A stretch of DNA of 64,000 bases from Clostridia bacterium. Lineage in GTDB: Bacteria > Bacillota > Clostridia > Christensenellales > Borkfalkiaceae. Below the pieces are notes generated by a model. The model saw only the letters and a list, made by a program, of their open reading frames with translations, was not told where the DNA came from and made no database searches. This document shows positions 37,464 to 41,890 of this stretch, in pieces. A program made the position numbers and the translations under genes. The DNA lies in contig JAFSRT010000019.1 of assembly GCA_017445995.1 (NCBI GenBank), forward strand, positions 62,001 to 126,000, in the 5' to 3' direction. How positions within the stretch are numbered: the stretch's first letter is position 1; each line of letters starts with the position of its first letter.

Positions 37464-40400
37464 ATGACGAGAAATAACATAACAGGCAAAATTAAAACAA
37501 CACTTATTCTTGTTGTACTTTCGGTTTTTCTTATCTGCACGTTCGGGTTTATGACCGCTTGCAAAAAAGATGAAACTTCTTACACGGAAAACACTTACAG
37601 CAGGGAATGGACCGACGAACAGAAAATTACCAACGGTAATTTCGAATACGGGACGGACGAGTTCGTCGCTACTTCCTATCCGCAGACTTCTTCAATCAGC
37701 GGTTGGTCTGTCGGCACGGACAATTCGTCTATCAGTTCTTCCGTTAAGTCGGGTATCATTAGCACGGCGGACGCGGACTGGGAGGAATTATTAAACACTA
37801 TTTGCGACGATAACGTTTTAAGTAAAGATAAACTTACAAACCCTTCTACCCACGACGATGCGTCGGGTACTAAAATGCTTATGATAAACAATTATCAGTC
37901 CACTTATAAGGGTTTAGGCGCGGGTCAGAAAGCGACTTCCGCTACTAAAATCACCTTAAAGAACGGAACGTATAACAAAATAAGCGTTTGGGTTAAAACG
38001 GCAAACATTACGGGCAACGGCGAAAATCTCGGCGCGAACATCACGCTTGTAAATACCGTTGCAGATAAAACGGTTAGCCCGTATAGAATTAACGGTATTA
38101 AAGCGGACAACTGGACGCAATATACTATTTACGTTAAGGCGGACGATTTTGAACAATGCACGGTTGACGTAGTTTTAGGTTTAGGCTACGGCGACGGGTC
38201 TTCCACCAACGCTAAATATTACGTTGAAGGCACGGCGTATTTTGACGACGTTGTTTACGAAGAAATAGACGCAAGCGAATTGCCGTCAAATATTCCGACT
38301 TCGTATTTTACTTATAATTCGGAAGGAAAATACGACGAAACGAAAAAGACCGCTAATCTCGGCACGGAATATTTTTACGATATGAGTTTAGAAAAAGCCA
38401 TTTCGGAAAATACCCCGTCTACTTTCAGAAAAACTCTCGATTTCGACGATTTTATAGCGAATACGATAAAGAGTTACAGCGGTATCGAACCTGCTTACGA
38501 ATTAGAAGAAGGCAAGGTTAAAATAACGCTTAACGAAACCAGTCTCGAACTCAATACGTCGGCAATCTTACCGAGAGAATCTTATAACGTCGTTTATTTC
38601 ACGATTGAAAAATCTCTCGGAAACATCAATGCGGACGATATTAAAGTTTATATCTTCGACGTTCACGATGAAAAGGAAGTTTTAAGAACCACGATAACCC
38701 CTACTTTCGACGACGGTAAGGCAAGGGTTTCCGCGCTTATCAAAAACAATTTCCCTGACGACGACGATAGTTATTCCGACAATGAACACGGATATAAAAT
38801 CTCTCTCGTTATAGGGCCTGCCGACAAAACGGCGAATAATTACAATTATCAATACCCTACGGGCACGGTAAAACTTTCCGCCCCTATCGTATACTCTGGC
38901 AAAACCTATCAGTACGTAAAGAACAGCGACCCGAAGGAAAAGACGGCGAACTACGATTATTACGATTTGTTGTCTTTAACTACGAACGGAACTGCGTCCC
39001 TTTACGTTGGGTACAGCGAAGATTATCAAAAAGACTCTGCCGATACCTACACTATTTCCGTTGCACCTGCTAACACGGGCGACGTAACCACTATGCCGAC
39101 TAATGCAGAAGGATACACGGGCGTTGTTACCGACAGTATGTATCTGAAACAGGACAGCACCAACGCTGAAATCAATACGAGAACGGGCAACGGCGACGAA
39201 AACGGTATTGCGGGACTTATCAATACGAAATATCTCGATAATTACGACGCTTCGATAAGAGACGGTATCAAAACGGCGTTAAATTATACCGGTGCGAAAT
39301 CTATTCAACCGCTTATGATTTACAACAAAACGGAAAACGCTTACGGATATTTCGGACAATCTATAAGTCTTTCGGCATCTTCGACAACGACGGTAAGCGT
39401 TAAGGTAAGAGTTGTAGGCGACGCTAAAGCGTATATCTACGTCGTTGACACTTCGTCTTCCGATAAAAAGGTTATGAACTTAACCGTTACGGTAAACACG
39501 GACGGCACGTCTTATTTGGACGCAGACACGATTACGACGGAAACAAGACGGCTTATGTTTAAAGTTTCGTCAGACATGATGAACGAAGACGGCTGGCTTA
39601 CCCTTACCTTCTATATTGCAAACGGCAACGTTGCTAAAAACTACCGTGTGGAATTATGGAACGGTGCAAGAGACGGTAGCGACAATTCGAGAGGATACGT
39701 TTTTTTCGACGAAATATCGACGGGCATTTCCTTTACCGAAGTCGGAACGGACGATTATAAACAGGCGTTCGTTACCGACGGCGTATTAAAGACGGCACTT
39801 CAAAACGAAAAAATAACCGAAAACGATATCGACGCTTCGAACAAGTTATTGCATAAGCGCGAACTCGACAGTACGGAAGTTAAATATAACGCAGATAAGA
39901 AGAAGAAAGGCGACAACGTTTCTTACGACGCGAAATATGTTTGGGTTAAAACCAACTCCACTATCTACGCCGTTTACAACAACGTAGAATACAGCGCGGT
40001 TGACCCTTACGTTTTGGAAGAAGAAGCAAATGCCGACGAAAACGAAACTGAAGAAAAAGAAGAAAAATCTTCTTCGACTTTCTGGCTTTCCTTCTCTTCA
40101 ATCCTTTTAGGCGTAGTATTAGTATTCGCACTCGGCGCGCTTATAGTTAAAACGGCAGTCGCAAAGAAAAAGGCTAACGCTAACGACGCTATTTCGCACT
40201 ATAACGTTAAGAGCAGGAATAAAGTTCAGCAAACAATAAAAGAAAAGAAATCGGTAAAAGCGGAAGAAAAAGAAGAAACCGAAGAACAAGCGGTTGAATC
40301 TGAAACTGTTGACGAACAAAGTGAAACCGAAATAACGGACGACAAGAACGACACCGAGATAGTTTCGGAAGAAGAGCAAATCGAAGAACAGCCGACGGAA

Positions 40401-40487
40401 GAAAAAGAAGAATATATTTACGGCGAAGTTCAGGATTTCGGAACGACCGAAGAAAAAAACGAAACCGATAAAAAAGACGAAGAATAA
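37464..40487 (+). CDS. Large surface lipoprotein with C-terminal membrane anchor and acidic tail
   Basis: 1007 residues, not assigned to a family I can name. The start is a lipoprotein signal with lipobox FMTAC (Cys33). The region from NGNFEYGTDEFV to AYFDDVVYEEI has the look of a jelly-roll carbohydrate-binding module (NGNFE start, WTQYTIYVKAD, closing YFDDV), and a similar beta-rich stretch recurs near 690-780. A hydrophobic helix (FWLSFSSILLGVVLVFALGALIV) near residue 870 is followed by a basic stop and about 110 residues rich in Glu, Lys and Thr. It should span the membrane with a large outer part. Ribosome site AAAGG. Confidence 0.75.
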   Translation: MTRNNITGKIKTTLILVVLSVFLICTFGFMTACKKDETSYTENTYSREWTDEQKITNGNFEYGTDEFVATSYPQTSSISGWSVGTDNSSISSSVKSGIISTADADWEELLNTICDDNVLSKDKLTNPSTHDDASGTKMLMINNYQSTYKGLGAGQKATSATKITLKNGTYNKISVWVKTANITGNGENLGANITLVNTVADKTVSPYRINGIKADNWTQYTIYVKADDFEQCTVDVVLGLGYGDGSSTNAKYYVEGTAYFDDVVYEEIDASELPSNIPTSYFTYNSEGKYDETKKTANLGTEYFYDMSLEKAISENTPSTFRKTLDFDDFIANTIKSYSGIEPAYELEEGKVKITLNETSLELNTSAILPRESYNVVYFTIEKSLGNINADDIKVYIFDVHDEKEVLRTTITPTFDDGKARVSALIKNNFPDDDDSYSDNEHGYKISLVIGPADKTANNYNYQYPTGTVKLSAPIVYSGKTYQYVKNSDPKEKTANYDYYDLLSLTTNGTASLYVGYSEDYQKDSADTYTISVAPANTGDVTTMPTNAEGYTGVVTDSMYLKQDSTNAEINTRTGNGDENGIAGLINTKYLDNYDASIRDGIKTALNYTGAKSIQPLMIYNKTENAYGYFGQSISLSASSTTTVSVKVRVVGDAKAYIYVVDTSSSDKKVMNLTVTVNTDGTSYLDADTITTETRRLMFKVSSDMMNEDGWLTLTFYIANGNVAKNYRVELWNGARDGSDNSRGYVFFDEISTGISFTEVGTDDYKQAFVTDGVLKTALQNEKITENDIDASNKLLHKRELDSTEVKYNADKKKKGDNVSYDAKYVWVKTNSTIYAVYNNVEYSAVDPYVLEEEANADENETEEKEEKSSSTFWLSFSSILLGVVLVFALGALIVKTAVAKKKANANDAISHYNVKSRNKVQQTIKEKKSVKAEEKEETEEQAVESETVDEQSETEITDDKNDTEIVSEEEQIEEQPTEEKEEYIYGEVQDFGTTEEKNETDKKDEE

Positions 40488-40538
40488 CAAAAAAGTCTAA
40501 AAAAGGCGACGCGTCGCTGATAAAAGTTTTAAGTCTAT

Positions 40539-40575
40539 AAAAGACTAACGGGAAATTTCCGTTAGTCTTTTTTTT
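40539..40575 (+). terminator. Terminator of the lipoprotein gene
   Basis: AAGACTAACGG pairs with CCGTTAGTCTT around seven bases, followed by T8. Confidence 0.85.
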
Positions 40576-40592
40576 GCTTCTTACAAAATACA

Positions 40593-40768
40593 GTTATATC
40601 GTTTGCTATGCAAACGGTTATATTTTTAGATAAATCTAAAAGTTATATTTTGACTGAAAGTCAAAGTTATATTAAATAAATCCTTAACTTGCCGTATGGC
40701 AAATATAACTGCGTAGCAATATAACTCGCTTGTAGCGAATATAACAAATCCGTTTTCGGATTTATTTA
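40593..40768. repeat. Seven-hairpin array with GTTATAT / ATATAAC spacers
   Basis: Four GTTATAT heptamers start at 40593, 40617, 40642 and 40666, and three inverted ATATAAC at 40703, 40719 and 40739. Between and after them are perfect hairpins: CGTTTGC-TAT-GCAAACG, TTTTAGA-TAAA-TCTAAAA, TTTGACT-GAA-AGTCAAA, TTGCC-GTAT-GGCAA, TGC-GTA-GCA, TCGCT-TGT-AGCGA and AAATCCG-TTTT-CGGATTT. TAAATAAATCC (40673-40683) is the complement of GGATTTATTTA (40758-40768), enclosing the inverted half. Stem sequences all differ; heptamers do not. There is no coding frame. Confidence 0.9.
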
Positions 40769-40834
40769 GTTAGCCGCTTTATATATCGTTTATATATTAG
40801 TATATTCGGGTTTTATATCGGCATACTATATAGT

Positions 40835-41890
40835 ATGGCAACGGTGATTTTAACGGGTGGCGGAACGGCGGGGCATTGCACGCCAAACCTTGCGCTTATC
40901 CCCTATCTTAAAAACCATTTCGATAATATTTATTATTTCGGTAGCGAACAGGGCATAGAAAAAACGCTTGTTAAAAAAGCGGGCGTAGAATATTTTACTA
41001 TCCCGTCAATCGGCTTAAAAAGAAAATTGACTTTCAAAAATCTTAAAATACCTTTCGTTTTAGTAAGCGGAATAAACAAAGCGAAAACCCTATTGAAAAA
41101 ACTTAAACCCGACGTAATATTTTCAAAAGGCGGGTACGTCGCGCTACCGACGGTTATTGCGGGGCATAAACTCGGTATTCCCGTTATCGCGCACGAAAGC
41201 GATTTAACCGTAGGACTTACTAACCGTATATCGGCAAAATATTGCAACGCCGTTTTAACGTCCTTTCCCGAAACTGCTAAAACCGTTAAAAACGGCAGAT
41301 ACGTCGGTTCGCCGATAAGACGGGAACTATCGTTGGCAACGTATAACATCGGATTAAAGTTTTTTAACTTAAAAGGCGATAAGCCCGTTTTATTAGTGTT
41401 CGGCGGAAGTCTCGGCGCGACTTCAATTAACGCGCTTTTAAGAAAATCGTTAGACTTACTTTTACCGAAATACGATATTATTCATATCGTCGGAAAAAAC
41501 AATATTAACCGCGCTATAAATAAGGCGGGCTACTATCAGTTCGAATATATCGATAAAATGGCATACGCCTACGCCGTGAGTTCGGTATGTTTAACCCGTG
41601 CCGGAGCAAATACCGTTTTTGAACTGTTGTCCCTTAATAAACCGTCCGTTTTGATACCGCTTTCAAAATCCGCGTCCCGCGGAGATCAGATGGAAAACGC
41701 GGAATACTTCGCTAAAAAAGGGCTAATCTATCAACTTGTCGGCGATATTTCACCCGAACAACTATCGCTTATGATTGACAGCGCCTATACTAACAGGGAA
41801 AATATTATCGCAAATATAAAACGCCGTAATATAGGCGACAAAAGTAAAGAAATTGCAGATATTATAGCCTATTACGTAAAGCGTCAATGA
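40835..41890 (+). CDS. murG: MurG, lipid II N-acetylglucosaminyltransferase
   Basis: 351 residues of a GT-B glycosyltransferase. The lipid I loop is ILTGGGTAGHCTPN, with PDVIFSKGGYVALP and AHESDLTVGLTNRISAKY following, and the UDP-GlcNAc site has VFGGSLGATSIN and TRAGANTVFELLSLNKPSVLIP. It adds GlcNAc to lipid I at the inner membrane face. It is alone rather than in a dcw cluster, and no clear ribosome site precedes the ATG. Some typical residues differ (HESD where HEQN is common), so a lineage-specific form or second copy is possible. Confidence 0.88.
   Translation: MATVILTGGGTAGHCTPNLALIPYLKNHFDNIYYFGSEQGIEKTLVKKAGVEYFTIPSIGLKRKLTFKNLKIPFVLVSGINKAKTLLKKLKPDVIFSKGGYVALPTVIAGHKLGIPVIAHESDLTVGLTNRISAKYCNAVLTSFPETAKTVKNGRYVGSPIRRELSLATYNIGLKFFNLKGDKPVLLVFGGSLGATSINALLRKSLDLLLPKYDIIHIVGKNNINRAINKAGYYQFEYIDKMAYAYAVSSVCLTRAGANTVFELLSLNKPSVLIPLSKSASRGDQMENAEYFAKKGLIYQLVGDISPEQLSLMIDSAYTNRENIIANIKRRNIGDKSKEIADIIAYYVKRQ

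Follow-up and report, generated by a model that had tools for sequence, protein, structure and literature searches.

Between the gene for a secreted or membrane protein and murG, the window analyzed here (the whole stretch of 64,000 nucleotides from a Clostridia bacterium) carries an array in which seven hairpins alternate with an exact heptamer over 40593-40768. We asked what kind of element has this plan and how it came to lie between these two genes. The window copy is a fossil, most of the claims made here rest on its relatives, and the assemblies are metagenomic.

Composition and folding of the array

Direct GTTATAT heptamers start at 40593, 40617, 40642 and 40666 of the window sequence, and inverted ATATAAC heptamers start at 40703, 40719 and 40739. 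The first three hairpins are CGTTTGC-tat-GCAAACG, TTTTAGA-taaa-TCTAAAA and TTTGACT-gaa-AGTCAAA; hairpins 4 to 7 are TTGCC-gtat-GGCAA, TGC-gta-GCA (3 bp only), TCGC-ttgta-GCGA and AAATCCG-tttt-CGGATTT. The four direct heptamers, three inverted heptamers and seven hairpins are thus present as the initial annotation had described them, and the heptamer positions confirm the period of 24–25 bases that it gave for the left half. An 11-nt long-range inverted repeat, 100% complementary between 40673-40683 and 40758-40768, competes with the last hairpin of the array.

The array is the densest hairpin cluster within the window. Folding of 40540-40800 was far more stable than that of shuffled sequences on both strands (z of -6.5 on the plus strand and -8.2 on the minus strand). 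Four heptamer-hairpin-heptamer units occur in the window, compared with none in 200 simulated windows generated as first-order Markov sequences, in agreement with the earlier view that random DNA of this composition would not give such an order. An assembly artefact, raised at the outset as a possible refutation, is unlikely because the plan recurs across dozens of independent assemblies.

The strong terminator that had been placed ahead of the array is present as a hairpin (40539-40575), but it is not a separate neighbour: a hairpin of similar build occupies the corresponding position in the related copy L064, so the window hairpin is part of the element. The left part of the window element was compared with L064 by eye. 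As preserved, the window element is without the left terminal repeat (..CCCATAGGGATT) and without the right terminal hairpin.

Table 1. Coordinates of the array and its surroundings, in positions of the window
Feature	Position	Strand	Basis
Upstream host gene, 1007-aa secreted/membrane protein; its terminator received the element	37464..40487	+	ORF list; genes with the same 3'-end type precede murG in sister species
Host terminator remnant left of the element, AAAAAAGGCGACGCGTCGCTG	40499..40519	+	Comparison with sister species
Whole element as preserved	40520..40771	+	40586-40771 88% identical to complete L062
Element's own terminator-like hairpin, AAAAGACTAACGGGAAATTTCCGTTAGTCTTTTTTTT	40539..40575	+	Inverted repeat I2; L064 counterpart AAAAGACTAACAAAAATTCGTTAGTCTTTTTTTTT
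Direct half: four GTTATAT linkers, three hairpins	40593..40672	+	Heptamer/hairpin mapping
Inverted half: three ATATAAC linkers, remaining hairpins, bracketed by TAAATAAATCC / GGATTTATTTA	40673..40768	+	Inverted repeat I8
Sub-threshold match to Gut-1 RNA (RF01706), 29.4 bits, cut-off 50	40698..40772	-	Rfam
Right host flank, AGCCGCTTTATATATCG	40772..40788	+	Homology to other copies stops at 40771
murG, downstream host gene	40835..41890	+	Its protein located the same locus in relatives

A dispersed family with complete members

A search of 151 genomes from the host's family for the triple-heptamer pattern yielded 129 matches in 30 genomes belonging to nine genera, and the reversed-pattern control yielded two; the array plan thus recurs in related genomes, where the initial annotation had suggested looking for it. 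At least 119 stretches of GTDB contigs carry the pattern, almost all of them from uncultured Clostridia and chiefly from animal guts. Many copies lie at contig ends, a behaviour expected of multi-copy repeats. In the host genome itself the searches revealed no further true array, the other GTTATAT pairs being without hairpins. One match came from a viral contig (L259).

The copies keep the order seen in the window, from direct half through centre to inverted half. End stems of at least 4 bp were found in 83% of 218 distinct inter-heptamer segments, compared with 0.6% after shuffling, and in homologous hairpins among the copies a given pair is formed by several Watson-Crick types and is seldom broken.

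The nearest copy, L062, is a complete 0.8-kb element that carries a PF05635 gene, and its identity to the window element (Table 1) extends over 186 nt. In many copies the direct half leads into a promoter (e.g. TTTACT-17-TATAAT) and then into the gene for a 117-aa protein that matches both PF05635 23S_rRNA_IVP (E 3e-29) and the TIGR02436 four-helix bundle (E 1e-32); 2rld is a relative with a solved structure. The window copy is gene-less, and a PF05635 search found no IVP gene in its genome. It shares with the family the direct and then inverted fixed linkers among variable hairpins.

Insertion into terminator loops

To the right of an element stands one hairpin arm followed by a T-tract, and to the left an A-tract followed by the complementary arm. 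In 19 of 34 elements, exact host arms of at least 10 nt on the two sides are complementary to each other, compared with 0.6% when flanks were swapped between elements; the other 15 yielded no arm of this length, because contigs end there or left ends differ. Where both flanking genes are known, 14 of 18 elements have convergent neighbours.

Comparison with sister species revealed empty sites. At tuf in the genome G071, a 1.4-kb element comprising the array and the IVP and methyltransferase genes separates CAGCTTGTC from GACAAGCTG, and in about 20 sister species tuf is followed by a plain terminator with a 4-5-nt loop, e.g. CAGCTTATC-cttcg-GATAAGCTG or the same with a ttcg loop. The murG locus was retrieved via the murG protein from 39 of 44 genus members. 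In 11 sister species only a plain terminator lies between the upstream gene and murG; the comparison of sister strains that had been advised at the outset thus found the array absent there, and, judged by these terminator-only species, the window element occupies an intrinsic terminator site. The sister-species locus L081 has AAAAAGAGCGACGAAAAATCGTCGCTCTTTTTT at the place of the left terminator remnant in the window. Insertion into the loop is seen in the relatives from arm pairing and empty sites; the host terminator arms in the window are decayed, and the right flank probably represents what is left of the right-hand terminator arm and its T-tract.

Target duplication in the loop insertions amounts to 0-4 nt. 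L288 repeats the whole arm, the right arm being duplicated in some copies of this kind, and tRNA-adjacent members follow an intact terminator. Because of these two departures, a single loop-insertion rule does not fit all members, and there may be more than one kind of insertion outcome.

Linker class follows the IVP tree

We collected 57 distinct PF05635 genes of the host's family without requiring GTTATAT. Most of them lie behind a terminator, often that of a tRNA, and a hairpin array whose fixed linker is first direct and then inverted. The 350 nt upstream contain 5.7 perfect hairpins at these genes and 3.0 at control genes (p 4e-11). The linkers found at IVP genes are GTTATAT, TGAAATA, TGAAATC, TGATATA, ATGATG, ATGAAGT, TGAATTG, ATAATG and ATGTAATC.

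Nine linker classes were assigned by hand from the DNA before tree building, covering 47 of the 57 IVPs and leaving 10 unassigned. Linker class required nine changes on the IVP tree, close to the minimum of eight and far below shuffled assignments (mean 32.7, lowest 28), whereas host genus required 27 changes (shuffled 31.9). Linker class tracks the IVP tree and host genus does not, and the elements therefore move between hosts as units; by the same agreement, each IVP clade retains its own linker. The initial annotation had offered a binding array as one possible reading. Given the agreement of linker word and IVP clade, that reading may hold in a sense, with binding itself the step that we infer.

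Passenger genes coupled to the IVP encode a methyltransferase, an acetyltransferase and a nucleotidyltransferase, and these genes, above all a methyltransferase of 198 aa, indicate that the elements can carry cargo. The gene for this class I SAM methyltransferase either overlaps the IVP stop codon or adjoins it at L010, L017, L029, L059, L132, L300 and L302; the seven elements belong to three linker classes, and the two genes look like a recurrent pair. A 130-aa protein of unknown family stands behind the IVP in one element (L077/L031, G109:C6), and a 123-aa protein is carried behind the IVP at L019.

Gut-1 RNA as a probable linker class

The nearest Rfam family to the window array is Gut-1, which has been published as a probable noncoding RNA (PMC2864571). 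Its consensus follows the same plan, with the fixed seven-letter linker GTGAAAT between variable hairpins, and the alignment with the window places GTTATAT where Gut-1 has GTGAAAT. At E<=0.001, no Gut-1 match was found in the window's own genome. Within the order, Gut-1 is present in 62 of 248 genomes, with at most 21 copies per genome, and many of the loci inspected have it at a terminator. Matches above the cut-off lie directly upstream of IVP genes at L129, L131, L132 and L300, that is, inside IVP elements of related genomes.

On these sequence comparisons, the best interpretation of Gut-1 is as one of the linker classes of the IVP hairpin-array element, although it was described as a noncoding RNA and not as part of a mobile element. 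This suggests that an Rfam 'sRNA' family really belongs to a transposable element. It also qualifies the initial statement that no named element has such a plan: Gut-1 shares the plan and the gene of the complete copies falls in PF05635, which leaves the statement right only in part.

Gut-1 arrays behind tRNA terminators enter the promoters of non-IVP genes at L264, L273 and L276, and the gene after the array is acetyltransferase-like at L273 and L276. Beside Gut-1 arrays at tRNA-Ser genes, inverted tRNA 3'-end fragments surround another insert (L260, L261 and L263) and are perhaps a second, tRNA-derived repeat family. Rfam matches of the window to the Avalong thermometer, SpF39 and mir-8489 were dismissed, with many pairs broken or scores far below the cut-offs.

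Nature of the array and alternative explanations

The array very probably belongs to a family of mobile elements targeting the terminal loops of intrinsic-terminator hairpins, as a copy that has decayed and carries no gene. A non-autonomous mobile element had been among the options first proposed, and it is supported by the dispersed family, the empty sister sites and the gene-bearing full-length relatives. A MITE or palindromic repeat moved in trans by an ordinary, unrecognised DDE or HUH transposase, with the IVP a mere passenger, is an unlikely source. Such a repeat would have the terminal inverted repeats, the gene-less copies and the enzyme-free interior observed here, and insertion into hairpins is known for some insertion sequences; however, the linker words agree with the IVP clade in nearly every case, as would not be expected if the IVP were a passenger, and target duplication does not appear constant. 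No transposase was seen between such ends, and no transposase-bearing element sharing the terminal repeats was found beside the eight exact left ends in 151 genomes, a small sample.

A role as structured regulatory RNA or sRNA, the category in which Rfam places Gut-1, is highly improbable for the array: the family is dispersed, the same locus is empty in sister species, the stems vary freely, and the copies lie mostly between convergent genes with no fixed gene context, even though the strong folding of both strands and the published account of Gut-1 point toward such an RNA. Hairpin recombination sites in single-stranded form are known, and an integron-like gene cassette with the array as an attC-like site would accommodate the single passenger genes coupled to the IVP. 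We nevertheless consider it very doubtful, as the elements are single and scattered in terminators, not lined up behind an integrase gene, and the seven fixed linkers, compared informally, are unlike attC boxes. The exact heptamers repeated upstream of murG could also be a transcription-factor binding array or a bidirectional terminator cluster retained for murG regulation; the absence of the array at murG in the 11 sister species and the unrelated genes that flank the other copies make this extremely unlikely.

Proposed mechanism

In the mobile element that we favor, a complete copy has a left end (..GCGTNTCCCATAGGGATT) and then a gene part, which may be absent and which comprises the IVP gene, often a coupled passenger gene, and a promoter, followed by the direct half-array of hairpins, a centre, the half-array with inverted linkers and a terminal hairpin. 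The linker would be the word that an IVP oligomer recognizes on the folded element, either RNA or single-stranded DNA, and insertion of the IVP-element complex into hairpin loops would depend on an enzyme acting in trans. A Xanthomonas IVP relative is a homopentamer. An RNA route is plausible because PF05635 is related to Avd, the partner of the reverse transcriptase of diversity-generating retroelements (DGR); the alternative would be a single-stranded DNA route as in REP/RAYT. The copies examined contain no transposase, reverse transcriptase or nucleic-acid cutting or copying enzyme, and because of this, and because no movement was observed, we infer the role of the IVP in movement. The element is probably near neutral to its host, because it occupies the terminator loop and brings its own terminator.

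More tentatively, at somewhat less than an even chance, these elements may form a mobile class of their own, in which an IVP oligomer reads a subfamily-specific linker along a hairpin tree and places RNA or single-stranded DNA into terminator loops, with the 23S rRNA IVS, Gut-1 and the IVP genes of other bacteria that have simple heptamer repeats at their flanks as branches. PF05635 proteins, the IVS and Gut-1 are long known but have had no function assigned, and a protein with its cognate linker word and a hairpin-loop target would give them one testable frame. The elements would also be a way for bacteria to bring passenger genes into terminators with genes left unbroken.

Relation to known systems

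The nearest known kind is the 23S rRNA IVS with an S23p/IVP gene (Coxiella, Leptospira), which shares PF05635/TIGR02436 with the elements described here and resembles them in its placement in an RNA hairpin loop and its inverted repeats. The Coxiella IVS has direct GACAGAT heptamers just upstream of its S23p gene, and the origin of the IVS has been called unclear (PMC4990558). In contrast to the IVS, the present elements target intrinsic terminators, not rRNA, and have elaborate hairpin arrays, their own promoter, passenger genes and many gene-less copies. Because the window element does not lie in rRNA but between a protein gene and murG, and its relatives in mRNA or tRNA terminators, it was not filed as an IVS. 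S23p/IVP coding is found in L062 and other relatives and is absent from the window and its genome. By analogy, the window element would work like the 23S rRNA IVS.

REP sequences and REPINs with RAYT (TnpA-REP) resemble the present family in that they too are palindromic repeats dispersed between genes, and each repeat type has its partner protein from a corresponding clade. They differ in that the protein here is a four-helix bundle without an HUH catalytic domain, in the location in terminator loops, and in the arrangement of variable stems with a constant linker, of which REP is the reverse. No HUH transposase of the IS200/IS605 group was found as a partner, the partner gene being PF05635/TIGR02436 only. 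Group IIC introns likewise insert at intrinsic terminator hairpins; unlike them, the present elements have no intron RNA domains or reverse-transcriptase ORF, and they lie inside the loop, not behind the stem. Avd, the DGR accessory protein and an essential reverse transcriptase partner in retrohoming, is a structural and sequence relative of PF05635 (PMC10053308), but neither a reverse transcriptase nor a TR/VR pair was seen in the elements. Searches of the open literature turned up no earlier account of terminator-loop elements with four-helix-bundle/IVP genes.

PF05635 genes elsewhere in the phylum

Direct-repeat heptamers surround IVP genes at 8 of 30 loci elsewhere in the phylum and at none of 60 control positions, a difference that is suggestive only. 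These PF05635 genes, from other classes of the phylum (L330-L359), are often preceded by short direct repeats and followed by inverted copies, among them AACTAGT, CAGTCAG, GTTGGAA and ATAGGAG. Such flanking repeats of PF05635 genes resemble cyanobacterial STRR heptamers. Two PF05635 matches, G642:C1:175017 and G420:C1:47499, fall within open frames longer than 1700 codons and may be fusions or lie in unusual sequence.
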